A program made the translations under genes and the position numbers. From NCBI GenBank assembly GCA_029242765.1, contig JAQWTJ010000094.1:1-59552 (forward strand): 59,552 bases of DNA, given 5' to 3'. Below the pieces are notes generated by a model that was given only the letters and a program-made list of their open reading frames with translations, searched no databases and was not told the origin of the DNA. The stretch is from Flavobacteriales bacterium (GTDB lineage: Bacteria > Bacteroidota > Bacteroidia > Flavobacteriales_D > Sanyastnellaceae). Below are positions 51,594 to 58,000 of this stretch, one piece after another. Position 1 is the first letter of the stretch; each line of letters begins with the position of its first letter.

Positions 51594-52228
51594 ATCCAGC
51601 AACCATTCGCAACATCGTCCTGGACTTCGGGGGCGTGCTTTATGATATAGACTACACCGCTCCGGCACGGGCCTTTGCTAAATTGGGTTGGAGTTCCTTT
51701 GTAGACGACTACGCAAAAGGTGCACAAAGCGAACTGTTCGACGGGCTGGAGATCGGATCCATTTCCGAGGGAGAATTCTTGAAGGTCTTGGGCACGCGAT
51801 GTGCCCCCGGCACGCTGCCCTCTGAGGTGCTCAGCGCGTGGAACAGTATTTTGATAGGACTACCGGAACGAAGCTTGAAGACTCTCGACGTGTTGTCCCT
51901 GAAATACAAGCTCTATATCTTTTCAAATACCAATGCCATTCATGCCCCGGTCTTCGAACGGCAAATCGCTGAAATCTATGGGCGCGGCGTCTTCCCGGAC
52001 TACTTCCAAGATATCGTCTATAGCCACCGATTCGGAATGCGAAAGCCGGACCCAGCAGCATACAAGGCGTATGCAGAACAATTCCATTTAGCCCCGGGCG
52101 CCACACTTTTTGTGGACGACTCCATGCCCAATGTAGAGGGCGCACGCCGAGCGGGTTGGCATGCATTGCACCTCGATGTGAATCGTGACCACCTGCAAGA
52201 ACTGCTCACGCGGAACGGGCTGATATGA
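51575..52228 (+). CDS. HAD-superfamily hydrolase (subfamily IA-like)
   Basis: The 217-residue protein starts at ATG 51575 inside the SPOR gene end. Motif I is LDFGGVLYDID (the second Asp is replaced by Gly, a variant common in this Bacteroidota branch), motif II FSNTN, motif III includes RKPDPAAY, and motif IV is FVDDSMPNVEGA. It probably acts on a small phosphorylated metabolite in the cytoplasm; the substrate is unknown. The stop TGA is also the first base of the palindromic block upstream of the sRNA-A locus. Confidence 0.88.
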   Translation: MDASSLNPATIRNIVLDFGGVLYDIDYTAPARAFAKLGWSSFVDDYAKGAQSELFDGLEIGSISEGEFLKVLGTRCAPGTLPSEVLSAWNSILIGLPERSLKTLDVLSLKYKLYIFSNTNAIHAPVFERQIAEIYGRGVFPDYFQDIVYSHRFGMRKPDPAAYKAYAEQFHLAPGATLFVDDSMPNVEGARRAGWHALHLDVNRDHLQELLTRNGLI

Positions 52229-52290
52229 CAAATGTCATCGCATTAAGCGACCGCTGTCACTCAAAATAGAAAGGCCCCATCCCATTTTTG
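52226..52290 (+). promoter_or_regulatory. palindromic block and promoter of sRNA locus A
   Basis: TGACA-AA-TGTCA (52226-52237), TCGC-ATTAA-GCGA (52238-52250) and TGTCAC (52255-52260) lie upstream of a CATTTTTG box (52283-52290). From the end of TGTCAC to the box is 22 nt. The same elements occur in the same order and spacing before locus B. Confidence 0.55.
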
Positions 52291-52294
52291 TGTC

Positions 52295-52381
52295 GTGATG
52301 CGATTCACAACTGCAAGCATGGTTTTGGTTCTTGCAACGATTTGGTTTAGAAAGCCCTCTGAAACGTCAGAGGGCTTTTTT
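52295..52381 (+). ncRNA. predicted small RNA A (three-hairpin type)
   Basis: Starting about 4 nt after the -7-like box: hairpin 1 GTGA-6nt-TCAC (52295-52308), hairpin 2 GCAAG-13nt-CTTGC (52313-52335), a single-stranded linker AACGATTTGGTTT (52336-52348), then a terminator hairpin. The 36-nt core from GCAAG to GGTTT matches copy B at 35 of 36 positions. It lies directly downstream of the HAD gene and ends in the 3' end of the DUF5723 coding sequence on the other strand. No coding frame explains it. Target and role unknown. Confidence 0.6.
52351..52381 (+). terminator. Rho-independent terminator of sRNA A
   Basis: AAAGCCCTCTGA-AACG-TCAGAGGGCTTT stem of 12 bp with a following U-run. The stop of the DUF5723 gene (minus strand, 52367) lies inside this stem. 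Confidence 0.9.
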
Positions 52382-53788
52382 ATTGCTCTGACTTTCTTTA
52401 TCAAGCTTTTTGCCACCCCACTCAAAGTTGATGCGGGTTGACACTTGGACGGCGCCTCGATCAAGGGGAGCAAAGGCCGGCAGGGCATTGGTTGTGGAGA
52501 GTGACCAGCGCACCGGGCCAGCCCGCACGGAGAAGCCGCCGCCGAGCAGCCACTGCTCAGAGTCGAAGAATTGGCCTGAGAGGTGAAGTGAAAAGTGGTC
52601 GCTGACCCGAAAGTCTCCCGCAGCACCGATGCTGTAGAAATGGGCCCTCCACACCGTTTTACGCGCTACGAATGCGGAAATGGTGGAGCGCTCACCAGGG
52701 GCGTAGTGCACAGCGGCGTGCAGTCGGCCGATCGGAGCTGAGGTGAAAGTCGCATCACCGGCCAAGTCGGGTGTCCAAGACAAGGCCAATGAATCGAGGA
52801 ACTGATCGGTGGTTGAGGTGGCCGACGAATCTTCAAGGACTTGCAACAGGTCGAGGCCTTCAAATCGAAAGGACTGCGGATCCAGGCGAATCGCTGTGGC
52901 GTGGTTGTCCCAGCGGATGCTGCCCAGGCCCGTGGCGGCTGCATCAAACTGCCATTTTGGAGCAAAGTCCCACAACAGGCCCAAATCAACTGAAACGCCC
53001 GAGGCAATGGGGGATTCCATGGGATTGAAATCATCTAAAGCGTCGAAATTCAAAGAATCCGCACCGTCCACATACAGGGGAACGCCTGCCGAGCGAATGT
53101 CCAGCGAGCCGTCAAAATCCCAGGCGTAGTCCAGCGGATCAGTCGTCCAGCCGGCGCGACTGGTGAGTGTGTTAACCGCTCCAATGCCCATCAAATAATG
53201 AGCGCCCAGCCCCACGCGAAGTTTTCGTTCAGAGAGGTCAACGGATGCCGTAACCGCGTGGTCCAGGTAGGTCTGGGCATACACCCCGAAGCCGTCAAGT
53301 GACAAGCGTTGGCCGATCATATCCGGGTGGGCGTTGCCTCGCCATGCCAATTCAAGCAAGCCCTTGGGGTAACTCACGCGCTGCTCAATTTGGGCGCTGG
53401 TGCTGTAGCTGAAGGCCCAATCCGAACCGGAACGCGAACGCGAGCGGAACCCGAACCCCAAAATGGGCACCTCAAGATCCAGCACCTCGTGCTCAACAAG
53501 GTCGAGGCGTTCCACAAAGCCCTCAATATCAACGGCTCCTGCGTCGCTGACCACCTGACCGTGGGTCGGCCCGGAATGAAAGGCCGAAATAGACAAGCCG
53601 GATAGGCCGGGGAAGATCAAGTGACCGCCAGAGAAGGGAAGGCTGGCAGGGTTCGACCAGCCGCCCGTATGCGGATAGCCCATGGGGGCTGCTTCAAACT
53701 GGGCTGATAGCGCAAGCGGAGTGGAGACCAGCAGTAGCAGGGTCGCACGAGTCAAAAGCGCGAATAAAGGGGGGCTAAAGCTCGACAT
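52367..53788 (-). CDS. DUF5723 family outer-membrane beta-barrel protein
   Basis: The 473-residue protein has a signal peptide (ending PLALSAQ) and the repeating beta-strand pattern of DUF5723 barrels, with DLGLLWDFAPKWQFDAAATGLGSIRW and VRAGPVRWSLSTTNALPAF. Function in the family is unknown; it is often paired with a lipoprotein gene. Its start overlaps the upstream lipoprotein gene by 14 nt, and its last codons (NKKAL) run into the sRNA-A terminator. Confidence 0.85.
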   Translation of the reverse strand: MSSFSPPLFALLTRATLLLLVSTPLALSAQFEAAPMGYPHTGGWSNPASLPFSGGHLIFPGLSGLSISAFHSGPTHGQVVSDAGAVDIEGFVERLDLVEHEVLDLEVPILGFGFRSRSRSGSDWAFSYSTSAQIEQRVSYPKGLLELAWRGNAHPDMIGQRLSLDGFGVYAQTYLDHAVTASVDLSERKLRVGLGAHYLMGIGAVNTLTSRAGWTTDPLDYAWDFDGSLDIRSAGVPLYVDGADSLNFDALDDFNPMESPIASGVSVDLGLLWDFAPKWQFDAAATGLGSIRWDNHATAIRLDPQSFRFEGLDLLQVLEDSSATSTTDQFLDSLALSWTPDLAGDATFTSAPIGRLHAAVHYAPGERSTISAFVARKTVWRAHFYSIGAAGDFRVSDHFSLHLSGQFFDSEQWLLGGGFSVRAGPVRWSLSTTNALPAFAPLDRGAVQVSTRINFEWGGKKLDKESQSNKKAL

Positions 53789-55457
53789 GAACGTAAAATT
53801 TTGCTCCCAGCTCGACTTTTAACTCGGCCGTTTCAGTGATGGCCGCATGGACCCCCGAGGCGGATTGGCTCGAGCGGGCCCGCACCCGCAATCCGATGTG
53901 CGTCACATCCGAGAGGACTTCTGCTCGCACCGCGTCAAAAGGAATGTCAACAATGGCCACCGCAACAGCCGTTGGCAGGCCCTGCGCGTCAATCGGAGCA
54001 GCGGCCAACAACGGCACTTCTTCAGCCGCCAAGCTGTCTAGCGCCGTGCCGGTGGAGTCCAGTAAAAGGAGTTGAAGCTCCGCCCCAAAAGGCAATCCGT
54101 TGGTTGTAATGATGCGCAATTCAAGGGAGTCCACTTCATCGGGCCACTCCACGTCGGCGTTCAGCACAAGGGTGTCGCGGAAGGTGAGCCCGTGGAGGCG
54201 TGCCCTCAGTGGCAGACGTGCCGCGGCTGAAATCTCCAGCTGGGCGTCGGCGGTTATAAAGTTGGGGGAGGACGGCGGGGGCGGCCCGGTGGGGTTCAGG
54301 GCGGCGCGCACAGCCAGAACCAGATGCCGTGGCTCCGGACCGATCACAGCAGGAAGCGATGAGTTGGATTCGTCAATCAAGACCGATGATTCGCCGGGGA
54401 GGCCCCAAGGAGAGGCCGCTGCAGGGACCGTCCAGCTGCCCGCAAAATTCAGGTCGGTCGTTGCCCCTGTTTCGATCACGGCGCTGTACGCCTGCGTGGA
54501 GTCAAAGAGCAAGGGCACGCCAAAGCCATTGACAGCGTGCAGTACAAGCTCAGCGCGCTCCATATCGAGGGCCTCGACTGAAAATCGGTCGTCAAACAAG
54601 GCGAGTTTCAGCGAGTCCTCATCAAGGGCTACGGTCGCCGATCCAAAATCGCCCCAAGCCGCATCAAAGAAGAGATTCGTCAAGGACATCTGCACCTCGA
54701 CGCCCTCCCCTGCAACAGATGACCAAGCGGCGTTGTTGGACAGTACAATTGCACCGGCAAGCACCATGGCGTGCTCAATACCGCCAGCCACATCGTCGTG
54801 CTCGGGCAAAAGCCGCCACCCTGAAAGGTCCAACTGAAGCGTTTGAGGCTGACCAACGGGCGAATTGGCCGCATCATACGCCCAAGTCCAGGGCGTATCG
54901 TCGGGTGCAATAAGGCCCGGAAGCCCCCAATCGATCGTTAAATTTTCTCCCGTTGTAGCCGTCACCGAAACCTCCAAAAATCCGGAAGCCAAGAGGATCT
55001 CGTCAATCCGCGCATCGCCCCATTGCATCTCAAGCAGCCAGGCCGCCGTGTCGGTTAAATCCACGCTGATGGGCTCGGGCAAGGCGTCGATCGCCAGCGC
55101 CATCGCATCGTCTAAAGCAAAGCCCTCCGCACCATACCACCACGGCAAATACAGCGATGTATCGGCTGCCAACGCCCCCAAAGGGCCGGACCACACCAAA
55201 TCCAGCACACCTCCATCGCCGACTTCCACGCCGAGGCCCTGGCCGTCGGAAGCCGAACTGTCCTCGATTGCTTCGAGCACCTCTTGCACGCCGAGTTGGG
55301 CCTCACCAAGCGGAACCGCCCACTGCTGATAGGCCGTGGGAAAGGTGTACGATTCTGGGGGCTTGCGGCAACTCGAAAAAAAAGCCGAAAGCACCAGAAT
55401 CAGGGCCAGCGATTGCGCCAAGCCCGAAAAGGAAAAGTCTGGTAAGCGAAAGGACAT
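53775..55457 (-). CDS. large lipoprotein of unknown function
   Basis: The 560-residue protein has a lipobox (SAFFSSC, Cys29) and no other strong match I recognise. It is rich in beta-strand-like runs and Asp/Leu-rich stretches. It overlaps DUF5723 by 14 nt, and the pair recalls the known pairing of DUF5723 barrels with lipoproteins, so the two may form an outer-membrane complex (inference). Confidence 0.75.
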   Translation of the reverse strand: MSFRLPDFSFSGLAQSLALILVLSAFFSSCRKPPESYTFPTAYQQWAVPLGEAQLGVQEVLEAIEDSSASDGQGLGVEVGDGGVLDLVWSGPLGALAADTSLYLPWWYGAEGFALDDAMALAIDALPEPISVDLTDTAAWLLEMQWGDARIDEILLASGFLEVSVTATTGENLTIDWGLPGLIAPDDTPWTWAYDAANSPVGQPQTLQLDLSGWRLLPEHDDVAGGIEHAMVLAGAIVLSNNAAWSSVAGEGVEVQMSLTNLFFDAAWGDFGSATVALDEDSLKLALFDDRFSVEALDMERAELVLHAVNGFGVPLLFDSTQAYSAVIETGATTDLNFAGSWTVPAAASPWGLPGESSVLIDESNSSLPAVIGPEPRHLVLAVRAALNPTGPPPPSSPNFITADAQLEISAAARLPLRARLHGLTFRDTLVLNADVEWPDEVDSLELRIITTNGLPFGAELQLLLLDSTGTALDSLAAEEVPLLAAAPIDAQGLPTAVAVAIVDIPFDAVRAEVLSDVTHIGLRVRARSSQSASGVHAAITETAELKVELGAKFYVHVEL

Positions 55458-55523
55458 GCTCCAAAGGAACGTGAAAAAGGCATCGACCGTTACGTCAGAA
55501 TCCGCCTATTCCACCTAGCGCCC

Positions 55524-57731
55524 TTACTCTGTAATGCCCTCCAAATCCAATATGAAGGCGTACTCTAAGGCCGTCTCGTGAAACCTGCGGAAACGCCCTG
55601 AAGCGCCGCCGTGACCGGCTTCCATGTTTGTCTTGAGCACCAATCGCGCATCGCCCGAGCGCTCAGCACGGAGCTTGGCAATCCATTTGGCGGGCTCCCA
55701 ATATTGGACTTGACTGTCCCAATAACCGGTGGTAATCAACGTATGGGGGTAATCCATCGCTGCAACATTGTCATAGGGCGAATAGGCCTTCATGTAGGTG
55801 TAATACTCCGCGTCTTTCGGATTGCCCCACTCGTCAAACTCCCCGGTAGTCAGCGGAATAGACTCATCGAGCATCGTGCTCACCACGTCGACAAAAGGCA
55901 CGGCAGCCACCACGCCGTTCCATAGGTCAGGCGCCATGTTCATCACCGCGCCCATCAACAGCCCCCCGGCCGATCCGCCCATAGCGTACAAATGCTCTGG
56001 GGAAGTGTAGCCCTGGTCCACCAAAGCCCGTCCGCAGTCAATAAAGTCCGTGAAGGTGTTCATCTTCTTGAGCAGCTTGCCGTCTTCATACCAATGCCGG
56101 CCCATCTCTTGGCCTCCACGGATGTGGGCAATGACATACACGAAACCGCGATCCAGCAATGACAAGCGCACGCTTGAGAAGTACGGGTCCATGCTCGAGC
56201 CATACGACCCGTAGGCGTACAGCAGCATCGGCGCCTGCCCGTTCTTTTCAAGGCCCTTGCGGTAGACGATGCTCACAGGCACCTGCGCGCCGTCACGGGC
56301 GGTCAGCATTTTTCGCTCCGAGGCGTAATTCTCTGGCGCAAAACCCTCGTCGAGGACCCGCTGTTGCTTGAGCAACTCCCGATCGCCCGTGCGCATATTG
56401 AAGTCATACGTCGAATTCGGCGTGGTCATCGACGTGTAGCCGTAGCGCAAAATCTCGGTGTCAAAGTCGGGGTTCGCTCCGGTGTAGGCCATGTACGCCG
56501 GGTCCTGGAAGGTCATGTAGTCGTCGCGACTGCCGTCCCAGGTCTTCACGCGGATTTGCGTCAGCCCCTCTTTACGCTCGCTCACCACGAGATAGTTCTT
56601 GAACATATCCACACCCTCGAGCAAGACATCGGCCCGGTGAGGAATCACTTCTTCCCAATGCTCCAAGCCCGTTTTATCCAAGCCCGTGCGCATCAAGCGG
56701 AAGTTCTTCGCCTCGTGATTCGTCACGATGTAGAAATGATCGCCATAATGCGAAATCCCGTATTCCAAATCCTGCGTGCGGGGTTGGATAACCCGCCAAT
56801 CCCCGTTCGGGTCATCAGCTCGAAGCACTTGCCATTCACTCGAAAGCGTGGAGTAGCTCCCGATGATGAGGAACTCGTCCGTCTTTGATTTGCCCACAAA
56901 ACACGAGAAGGTCTCGTCTTTTTCCTCAAAGACCAGCACATCATCTGAAGTCGGCGTGCCGAGCACGTGCCGGAAAATTTGGTTCGAACGCAGGGTTTGC
57001 GGGTCCTTTTTCGTGTAGAATAATGTCCTGTTATCCGCCGCCCACGTTGCGCCGCCCGTGGTTTGGGGGATGCGGTCGGAGAACACCTCGCCCGTCTCAA
57101 TGTTCTTCACCTGCAAAGTGTACTCCCGGCGACTCACCGTATCGATGCCGTAGACCATCATGGTGTTGTCCGGGCTCACCGCACCGCCGCTCATAGCGAA
57201 GTAGTCGTGCCCTTCAGCCAGTTCATTCTGGTCCACCATAATTTGCTCGTCGGCGTCCATCGAGCCGAGTTTTCGGCACCTGATCGAATACTCCTTGCCG
57301 TCCTCATACCGCGTGTAATACCAATACCCATGGTCCTTCACTGGAACGCTCTGGTCGTCCTTTACAATCCGCCCCACAATTTCATCAAACAAGGCCTTTT
57401 GAAAGCCCTCGGTGTGTTTCATGACGCCTTCGGTGTAGGCATTCTCAGCATTCAGATAGTCCAGCACGTCCTGCGTTTGCCCGTCGGGCGTCTCGGCCTT
57501 CTTCTGTTCGTCACTCAAGCGCATCCAGAAATACGGGTCCACGCGCGTATCGCCGTGAATTTCCAGCACGCTGTCTTGCGTTTTCGCCACCGGAGCTTGG
57601 GACAGTTCGGCGTCAGAAGTTGAAGTGCTTTTGTTCATTGTAGGTCCTTGGCAGGCGGCGAAGATAACCGCTATTAATGCGGCACTAAGGGAGGTCAATG
57701 CAGCTTTTGCTACAGAAAATCGTACGGTCAT
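55524..57731 (-). CDS. prolyl oligopeptidase family peptidase (oligopeptidase B-like, lipoprotein)
   Basis: ATG 57731 gives 735 residues; a TTG-initiated extension upstream is less likely. A lipobox (IFAAC) near residue 27 suggests a lipid-anchored form. An N-terminal beta-propeller (about 60-440) precedes an alpha/beta hydrolase with GGSAGG (Ser near 586), D in GYWDSQVQ (near 670) and H in EAGHGG (near 705), matching oligopeptidase B. It cleaves peptides, probably after basic residues, outside the cytoplasm. Confidence 0.9.
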   Translation of the reverse strand: MTVRFSVAKAALTSLSAALIAVIFAACQGPTMNKSTSTSDAELSQAPVAKTQDSVLEIHGDTRVDPYFWMRLSDEQKKAETPDGQTQDVLDYLNAENAYTEGVMKHTEGFQKALFDEIVGRIVKDDQSVPVKDHGYWYYTRYEDGKEYSIRCRKLGSMDADEQIMVDQNELAEGHDYFAMSGGAVSPDNTMMVYGIDTVSRREYTLQVKNIETGEVFSDRIPQTTGGATWAADNRTLFYTKKDPQTLRSNQIFRHVLGTPTSDDVLVFEEKDETFSCFVGKSKTDEFLIIGSYSTLSSEWQVLRADDPNGDWRVIQPRTQDLEYGISHYGDHFYIVTNHEAKNFRLMRTGLDKTGLEHWEEVIPHRADVLLEGVDMFKNYLVVSERKEGLTQIRVKTWDGSRDDYMTFQDPAYMAYTGANPDFDTEILRYGYTSMTTPNSTYDFNMRTGDRELLKQQRVLDEGFAPENYASERKMLTARDGAQVPVSIVYRKGLEKNGQAPMLLYAYGSYGSSMDPYFSSVRLSLLDRGFVYVIAHIRGGQEMGRHWYEDGKLLKKMNTFTDFIDCGRALVDQGYTSPEHLYAMGGSAGGLLMGAVMNMAPDLWNGVVAAVPFVDVVSTMLDESIPLTTGEFDEWGNPKDAEYYTYMKAYSPYDNVAAMDYPHTLITTGYWDSQVQYWEPAKWIAKLRAERSGDARLVLKTNMEAGHGGASGRFRRFHETALEYAFILDLEGITE

Positions 57732-57783
57732 GGTCAATAGGTTCAAAGGTTTGCCTTTTAAGAGCTGAAGGGCAATCGGGGAC

Positions 57784-57791
57784 CAAATCTA
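57784..57791 (-). promoter_or_regulatory. predicted -7 box of the oligopeptidase gene
   Basis: Minus-strand TAGATTTG is a perfect TAnnTTTG match, 52 nt before ATG 57731. It lies just downstream of the sRNA-B terminator. Confidence 0.5.
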
Positions 57792-57819
57792 ATTCGAATT
57801 GCACTACAAAAAGGGCTAT

Positions 57820-57852
57820 AAAAATCGAGCCCCCTGACGTTTCAGAGGGCTC
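57820..57852 (-). terminator. Rho-independent terminator of sRNA B
   Basis: GAGCCCTCTGA-AACG-TCAGGGGGCTC stem with a downstream GATTTTTATA. One wobble pair differs from copy A while the fold is kept. Confidence 0.9.
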
Positions 57853-57930
57853 AACCAAAAACCAAATCGTTGCAAGAACCTAAACCATGCTTGCGCGTGA
57901 GGGGAAAAAGCCGAAGCGTTGACGCCTCAC
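57820..57930 (-). ncRNA. predicted small RNA B (three-hairpin type)
   Basis: Reads leftward from about 57930: hairpin 1 GTGAGG...CCTCAC (57930 to 57897, a longer arm than in copy A), hairpin 2 GCAAG...CTTGC (57894 to 57872), linker AACGATTTGGTTT (57871 to 57859), then a terminator hairpin (57852 to 57827). The core is identical to copy A at 35 of 36 positions, and the terminator has a G-U pair where A has A-U. The only alternatives seen are a repeated extragenic element or a small RNA family. Confidence 0.6.
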
Positions 57931-57934
57931 ATGC

Positions 57935-58000
57935 CAAAGATGCGAACATGGTTTGCTTGTGGAAGTGACACAGGTCGCTTGCGACTGTGACTTTTGTCAC
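57935..58000 (-). promoter_or_regulatory. palindromic block and promoter of sRNA locus B
   Basis: On the minus strand: GTGAC-AAAA-GTCAC (57987-58000), GTCGC-AA-GCGAC (57974-57985), TGTCAC (57965-57970) and, 22 nt later, CATCTTTG (57935-57942). Order, spacing and box match locus A, although the sequence between them differs. Confidence 0.55.

Follow-up and report, generated by a model that had tools for sequence, protein, structure and literature searches.

What do two similar, oppositely oriented loci within one contig encode, and how are they controlled? The question is raised by contig JAQWTJ010000094.1 of a Flavobacteriales bacterium, a stretch of 59,552 nucleotides (nt) referred to here as the window, in which two loci (copy 1 and copy 2) were described in the original prediction as a pair of regulated small RNAs (sRNAs), possibly undescribed. 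This description stood as far as it went, as a third copy with the same geometry occurs in another genome, Rfam gave no match at gathering score and a 3' module is shared. Its scope, however, was too small, since the pair represents two members of a multi-type family that spans the bacterial family. Comparison of the loci provides good support for a new family of sRNAs whose 3' module is nearly constant while their control varies; the two window copies and their third homologue form its type E. With a probability of roughly 0.7, the type E RNAs would be trans-acting sRNAs that depend on a Crp/Fnr-type activator and end in a stabilising or protein-docking 3' module.

The two loci lie on opposite strands at the predicted places, and their cores, consisting of a hairpin (hairpin 2) and a linker, are identical at 35 of 36 positions. 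Elsewhere in the window, no ungapped alignment with the copy 1 core exceeds 23 of 36. The window is contig 92 of the 110 that make up its own genome (2.22 Mb). A search of this genome with the core pattern, allowing three mismatches, recovered only copies 1 and 2, and the reversed control recovered none. The predicted RNAs of copy 1, copy 2 and the third homologue, from genome G094 of the same genus, fold better than dinucleotide shuffles with z values of -3.35, -2.94 and -3.03, respectively (1, 3 and 1 of 200 shuffles folded as well), and the terminator supplies much of this folding energy. Two details of the predicted structure were revised. The terminator pair that had been called compensatory is a one-sided wobble, an A to G change opposite U. 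The common base of hairpin 1 (GTGA/TCAC) was confirmed, but the likeness of the hairpins had been overstated, as that of copy 1 is otherwise too divergent.

The promoter layout predicted for the pair, TGTCAC followed after exactly 22 nt by CATnTTTG and after a further 4 nt by GTGA, is present in both copies. The -7 element of Flavobacterium johnsoniae extends from -12 to -5, with the transcription start 4-5 nt further on (PMC6847099), and the element of F. psychrophilum occupies the same position (PMC9723704). Applying the F. johnsoniae spacing places the predicted start at the G of GTGA and the centres of two operators at -41.5 and -63.5. These centres were found in all three type E copies, with the start predicted from the spacing. 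Of the two kinds of tandem palindrome originally proposed, TGAC...GTCA belongs to a 14-bp operator, whereas TCGC...GCGA is missing in the third homologue and was therefore not counted as a functional element. The TGTCAC box is real, but it forms part of another 14-bp operator, of whose two halves it is the better; this operator is weaker than the first and lies 22 bp downstream of it, centre to centre. Across the three loci the sequence between the elements has diverged while the operators, their spacings and the box were kept. Class II promoters, as activated by the Crp/Fnr family, have an operator near -41.5, and the paired palindromes would fit operators of this kind. The features of both loci are listed in Table 1.

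Table 1. Features of the type E loci and adjoining genes in the window. Of the two covariance models, R1 was built from all three copies of type E and R2 describes the shared 3' module; copies 1 and 2 were both in the training set of R1 and both used in building R2, and their bit scores are thus self-scores.
Feature	Positions	Strand	Basis or remark
Copy 1 operator 1, ATGAC-N4-GTCAT, centre -63.5 from predicted start	52225..52238	+	three-homologue promoter alignment
Copy 1 operator 2, GCGAC-N4-GTCAC, centre -41.5	52247..52260	+	layout search and alignment
Copy 1 -7 box CATTTTTG, 22 nt 3' of operator 2	52283..52290	+	
Copy 1 predicted sRNA, ~90 nt: hairpin 1, hairpin 2, linker, terminator	52295..52386	+	R1, 90.3 bits; fold z
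Copy 1 core: hairpin 2 (loop UUUUGGUU) followed by linker AACGAUUUGGUUU	52313..52348	+	pattern and ungapped match
Copy 1 shared 3' module (UUUGGUU linker and AACG-loop terminator)	52338..52385	+	R2, 59.1 bits
DUF5723 gene, convergent with copy 1	52367..53788	-	stop codon inside 3' arm of copy 1 terminator
S9 prolyl oligopeptidase gene, 3' of copy 2; weak candidate target	55524..57746	-	ATG start near 57731
Copy 2 predicted sRNA, ~110 nt	57818..57930	-	R1, 137.2 bits; fold z
Copy 2 shared 3' module	57819..57869	-	R2, 57.0 bits
Copy 2 core: hairpin 2 and linker	57859..57894	-	pattern and ungapped match
Copy 2 -7 box CATCTTTG	57935..57942	-	
Copy 2 operator 2, GCGAC-N4-GTCAC, centre -41.5	57965..57978	-	layout search and alignment
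Copy 2 operator 1, GTGAC-AAAA-GTCAC, centre -63.5	57987..58000	-	one of only two exact GTGACN4GTCAC sites in own genome

The third homologue is located on contig CALACF010000310.1 of G094, between a PurS and a DUF5723 gene that were named from their likeness to window genes. Its hairpin 1 is long, as in copy 2, and the core, the terminator and the promoter layout are likewise kept. An exact 17-mer scan of the genome contigs returned 28 stretches, of which only this one, judged by its surroundings, was taken as a homologue; the core pattern at up to two mismatches, run over 114 genomes, returned the own genome (G000), G094 and six others without the surroundings. The gene order in the window is PurS, copy 2, oligopeptidase, lipoprotein, DUF5723, copy 1, where the lipoprotein carries the name given in the original prediction, as Pfam assigned it no family. 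In G094 the order is PurS, sRNA, 3' end of DUF5723 and a second gene, and the cassette is reversed relative to PurS. This reversal would be explained by an inversion between the two inverted copies.

A covariance search revealed the larger family. Model R1 matched weakly across the genus, and these matches exposed a shared 3' half. This module consists of a TTTGGTT linker followed by a terminator stem closed on a GA-AACG-UC loop, and it stands behind unrelated 5' halves. The combined pattern of linker and loop occurs 65 times in the 17 genomes of the genus, with one copy 1 site counted twice through overlap, compared to five occurrences of the reversed controls. At E <= 0.01 model R2 matched 105 of the 114 genomes of the bacterial family, but only 10 of 285 other genomes of the order, where about three are expected by chance. 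Copy numbers are lower bounds, as the first R2 pass scored 15 candidates per genome; the own genome harbors at least eight matches at this threshold, seven of which were read individually. Within 472 kb of own sequence, partly fetched because it contains members, seven members score 43-64 bits, and the next matches are another hairpin at 22 bits and a match at 16.5 bits. Among 23 members, stem pairing holds in 99.3% of cells compared to 65.5% in shuffles, and none of 500 shuffles reached the covariation score of the stem. Searches with Rfam 15 identified only a tRNA in the window, the sRNA loci remaining without a match at gathering score, and in nine sources with relatives they gave four sub-threshold matches. 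The best of these, to BSnc120 of Brucella, lies on the strand antisense to the G094 copy and scores 34.8 bits (E 7.3e-05), where the cut-off is 114. No published description of this sRNA family was recognised in the PMC literature within the terms searched.

Several arrangements of members were seen in passing. In six stretches from the same genus (L086, L087, L088, L089, L094 and L100), one sRNA type forms tandem pairs about 200-240 nt apart, most of them with boxes similar to TACGTTTG and, further upstream, repeats similar to TCYTACA, which may point to a LytTR-like regulator. In genera g16 (L221, L222) and g15 (L224), module members stand in tandem, three to four of them in roughly 1 kb. 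A type composed of AAGTGAG, a hairpin and CATCAAGTGATAATTTGGTTAAG is much alike in genera g1, g19 and g21 (L155-L157, L165-L168, L112, L123) and may be the ancestral, core member. Furthermore, R2 matches the reverse strand of the copy 1 terminator (52349-52386) weakly, at 16.5 bits.

While the module is nearly constant, the regions upstream of it differ. They were compared for 100 of 115 hand-assembled rows, which come from several genera and include related sequences, so that they do not represent independent events. Nine repeat rows (L151 twice, L152, L153, L112, L119, L224 three times), the reverse-strand match L096 +, three rows near a contig edge (L122 and L154, which are one place, and L227) as well as L158 and L159 were dropped. 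Expectations were derived from random stretches of the same loci. A sigma-54-like box (TGGCA[CT]N5TTG) 52-79 nt before the module is present in 23 of the 100 members, with 1.1 expected, and the own genome encodes RpoN. A TA[ACT]NTTTG box was found in 27 members (3.05 expected). The operator layout of type E, at up to two mismatches, was found in four (0.25 expected). Three of these are the type E copies themselves; the fourth, a doubtful case, is L232 from a genome of another genus (G016), which differs from the operator at two positions, lacks a second operator and was treated as chance. The own genome, a second genome of the same genus and a genome of genus g18 each have a member with a sigma-54 box next to a thiolase gene (L102, L101 and L060).

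The genome was also searched for a protein that might act on the type E operators. One protein with a cNMP-binding domain (PF00027) was found, a fusion of receiver, cNMP-binding and HTH_Crp_2 domains (L040:1186-2307, contig C3); PF00027 alone was searched, and this search could overlook Crp-like proteins whose sensor domain has diverged. The recognition helix of the fusion, TAKESLIR, resembles the Crp pattern. Its gene, which encodes a two-component Crp-type regulator, adjoins a gene that resembles PheT by eye. When the layout was relaxed (8 of 10 arm letters, spacing of 18-26 nt), the 472-kb sample yielded ten matches, and the sRNA promoters are two of the best three. The strict layout, GTGAC-N4-GTCAC followed after 22 nt by NANNTTTG, occurs at up to one mismatch at 111 sites in the 114 genomes of the family, as opposed to 11 sites for the reversed control, and 56 of these genomes contain at least one site. 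In the own genome and in G094, which are also the two genomes of the genus with type E sRNAs, such a site with 22-nt spacing lies upstream of a persulfide-dioxygenase-like gene; three further genomes of the genus have one layout site each.

The genes downstream of the layout were read at 38 loci (30 returned by the search and 8 chosen), corresponding to 39 rows and 37 distinct sites. An ATG frame of at least 60 codons begins within 260 nt of 32 of the 37 sites. Pfam was applied to 20 of these 32 distinct frames, the other 12 being apparent repeats of these. Of the 20 scanned proteins, 13 (a raw count) were assigned to families linked to sulfur, respiration, redox or stress. These families comprise rhodanese, metallolactamase-rhodanese (persulfide-dioxygenase-like), SulP, YeeE-type sulfur transport, TauE and YgaP-TM, as well as disulphide isomerase, rhodanese-thioredoxin, Usp, cbb3 oxidase (COX1 and FixO) and FixG. 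The remaining seven include four proteins without a family, one FIST protein, a sub-threshold DUF6132 and a weak dehydrogenase match. In F. psychrophilum, expression of the cbb3 oxidase is increased under oxygen limitation (PMC9723704). Judged by the genes that share the layout, the signal inducing type E is probably low oxygen or persulfide/sulfide stress.

Taken as activator-dependent, trans-acting RNAs, the type E sRNAs may work as follows. A Crp/Fnr-family activator, probably the receiver-Crp fusion, would bind the GTGAC-N4-GTCAC-like operators at -41.5 and -63.5 and drive sigma-A RNA polymerase in class II geometry at the weak -7 box CATnTTTG. The predicted product of 90-110 nt would contain two hairpins, a single-stranded UUUGGUU and a terminator with a variable stem and the near-fixed GA-AACG-UC loop. 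Its variable 5' half, including the hairpin 2 loop, would pair with targets in trans, and the shared 3' module would most likely be a stability element or a dock for an RNA-binding protein. As other members have sigma-54-like or sigma-A-like boxes before the same module, different signals would feed one RNA format.

A number of observations weigh against this reading. Both the sRNAs and the binding of an activator are predictions from sequence. Type E was found in only two of the 17 genomes of the genus, many of which are incomplete, and for 47 of the 100 members the search for three promoter motifs found none of them. No type E copy has a perfect operator 2, and in G094 one arm of this operator carries two mismatches (GGAAC-N4-GTCAC). 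The operator motif without the box, at up to one mismatch, is hardly enriched in the own genome (67 sites compared to 54 for the controls; two exact). The persulfide-dioxygenase-like genes have their ATG only 4-5 nt past the box, so that their messenger RNAs (mRNAs) would be leaderless or the true start codon lies further in; leaderless mRNAs make up 5.5% in F. psychrophilum (PMC9723704). Two-sided changes affect 10 of 12 stem pairs of the module, a number reached by 91 of 500 shuffles. Unlike terminators would all pair in this way, and kinship of the members therefore rests on linker and loop rather than on the stem. Since most members were found by a pattern requiring linker and loop, their invariance is partly built in; one own member (C107) has an AAAG loop instead of AACG. 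As to partners, Hfq did not exceed the cut-off in any of 199 genomes of the order, the own genome included (one sub-threshold match, in another family), and the RNA-recognition motif (RRM, PF00076) had no match in the own genome, while the Bacteroides control was positive. As to targets, AACCAAA, the complement of the linker, occurs once at start regions, with 1.3 expected (356 crude gene calls in 452 kb, about 20% of the genome), and duplexes of the linker and of hairpin 1 with 349 start regions were weaker than those of shuffles.

The foremost alternative concerns the module itself. The UUUGGUU linker, with its repeat in the hairpin 2 loop, could be a targeting seed, and all types would then repress a common set of mRNAs in the manner of FopS, the paralogous sRNAs of Bacteroides. 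We regard this as unlikely, albeit the best-supported of the alternatives. In its favor, the linker shows strong conservation and stays unpaired when copy 1 is folded, and the seed motif is present twice in type E and in several other types. However, CTTAACCAAA has 94 matches in the 17 genomes, 57 of them in known module members, and the other 37 stay below the 71 matches of reversed controls. Thus, neither this 10-mer count nor the AACCAAA sample, which is limited by its crude gene calls, supports the linker as a start-codon seed. Start contexts of the form ACCAUGC could pair with the complementary loop of hairpin 2 (GCAUGGUUUUGGUUC), and with the copy 2 loop the start of the S9 oligopeptidase gene ranks first among the 349 start regions. 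This rank falls to 18 with the whole hairpin and to 5 with co-folding, and copy 1 gives ranks 12, 47 and 13, the gene having been singled out post hoc. The copy 2 loop also performs no better than shuffles (best -17.7 compared to -18.2, standard deviation 2.0; the top ten lie within one standard deviation), while duplexes of the copy 1 loop are about one standard deviation better than those of shuffles. The S9 oligopeptidase is thus a weak candidate target and should be taken as a lead only.

A second alternative, which appears improbable, is that the module is merely the preferred terminator of the family. The module does contain an intrinsic-terminator hairpin. With the DUF5723 stop codon placed inside the 3' arm of its stem, the copy 1 hairpin may end both the sRNA and the convergent DUF5723 mRNA, and the lack of the promoter motifs sought in 47 members would suit a common terminator as well. 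On the other hand, the 472 kb show a gap in score between the seven members and the next hairpin, and the two other hairpins in the window that resemble terminators have loops different from that of the module. Furthermore, same-strand open frames of at least 150 codons, taken irrespective of coding status, end within 60 nt upstream of only five of the 100 members, which indicates that the modules are mostly not mRNA 3' ends. For a further 14 members such a frame ends 61-150 nt upstream and for 29 at 151-400 nt; 52 have none within 400 nt.

It is very improbable that copy 2 acts in cis as a leader or attenuator of the S9 oligopeptidase gene, with copy 1 as a decayed duplicate. Copy 2 does lie upstream of this gene in the same direction, but a terminator hairpin stands between them, and in copy 1 the operators, the box and the terminator are all retained. 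Neither copy 1 nor the G094 copy is a leader, since each faces the 3' end of a convergent gene and leads into no gene. A role in trans is the natural reading of type E.

An origin of the loci as copies of a mobile repeat, similar to miniature inverted-repeat transposable elements (MITEs), is more remote still. The inverted pair flanks a cassette, and the module model has weak matches on two viral contigs from IMG/VR. Nevertheless, the core occurs only twice in the own genome, a plasmid collection contained no match to the copy 1 region, and the G094 copy is flanked by PurS and DUF5723, genes that also flank the window copies. The case that would have refuted the original prediction, a MITE without conserved promoters, was not what was found: the functional elements of type E were kept while the intervening sequence diverged. 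The pattern was too weak for the viral collection, where it returned at least 120 stretches; among the 80 listed, L282:341-386 and L326:727-781 match the module model at 36.5 and 29.9 bits. One of these matches sits behind a TATATTTG box, and they are possibly phage-borne members. A phage copy has been reported for FopS (PMC11697453). That the core encodes a small protein is scarcely credible, since the frame that is open from ATGGTTTTGGTTCTT in copy 1 and G094 is stopped in copy 2 by a TAG at its third codon, and where open it continues through the terminator.

Among known systems, Rfp18 of Flavobacterium is a conserved sRNA, probably from the same order, that is likened here by its description (PMC9723704) and not by sequence; the module, in contrast, occurs outside the bacterial family of the window in only the 10 of 285 genomes of the order. 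The nearest precedent is FopS of Bacteroides thetaiotaomicron, described as paralogous sRNAs of about 65-70 nt with a shared 5' seed, canonical sigma-ABfr promoters and the RRM protein RbpB (PMC11697453). Both are multicopy sRNA families of the same phylum with a shared sequence block. Three differences are evident. The FopS block is the 5' seed R1', whereas here it comprises the 3' linker and terminator behind differing 5' halves; this contrast rests on the position of the block, as the letters of R1' themselves were not searched for. FopS promoters are canonical, whereas the promoter motifs of module members vary. FopS is associated with RbpB, whereas the own genome yielded no PF00076 match. 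The module family would thus resemble FopS in kind, being multicopy, without sharing its 5' seed or an RRM protein.

In its presumed function, type E can be likened to FnrS of enterobacteria, an FNR-activated sRNA that gives the redox regulator a repressing arm. FnrS is induced at low oxygen and represses metabolic mRNAs, and the genes with the shared layout suggest a similar behaviour of type E. Type E would likewise be the sRNA of a redox regulator, acting through a Crp/Fnr-family activator, but it differs in its Crp-like GTGAC-N4-GTCAC operator, in the likely receiver-Crp fusion and in the lack of an Hfq over the cut-off. Type E has an operator near -41.5 from the predicted start and its genome encodes a Crp/Fnr-type protein, as for class II Crp/Fnr promoters, with binding and activation as predictions. 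The Qrr sRNAs of Vibrio are multicopy and sigma-54-dependent. They share with the module family the presence of sigma-54-like boxes before members of a multicopy sRNA set; here, however, only some members possess such a box, and the shared part is the 3' module.

To our knowledge, the regulation by sRNAs without Hfq is a largely open field in this phylum. A tentative extension of the favored reading, which we consider possible but rather doubtful, is that the module serves as a docking tag for a chaperone that does the work of Hfq in the family and has been plugged onto new 5' halves and promoters. If so, the family would possess a modular sRNA network with Crp-like, sigma-54 and sigma-A promoters that answers redox, sulfur and other signals. 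The near-constant module, present in 105 of the 114 genomes of the family, would then provide a bait for its binding protein. If no binder exists, the idea of a shared seed could be tested strongly with the same module. A testable case with a link to redox or sulfur is offered by the pair in the window.

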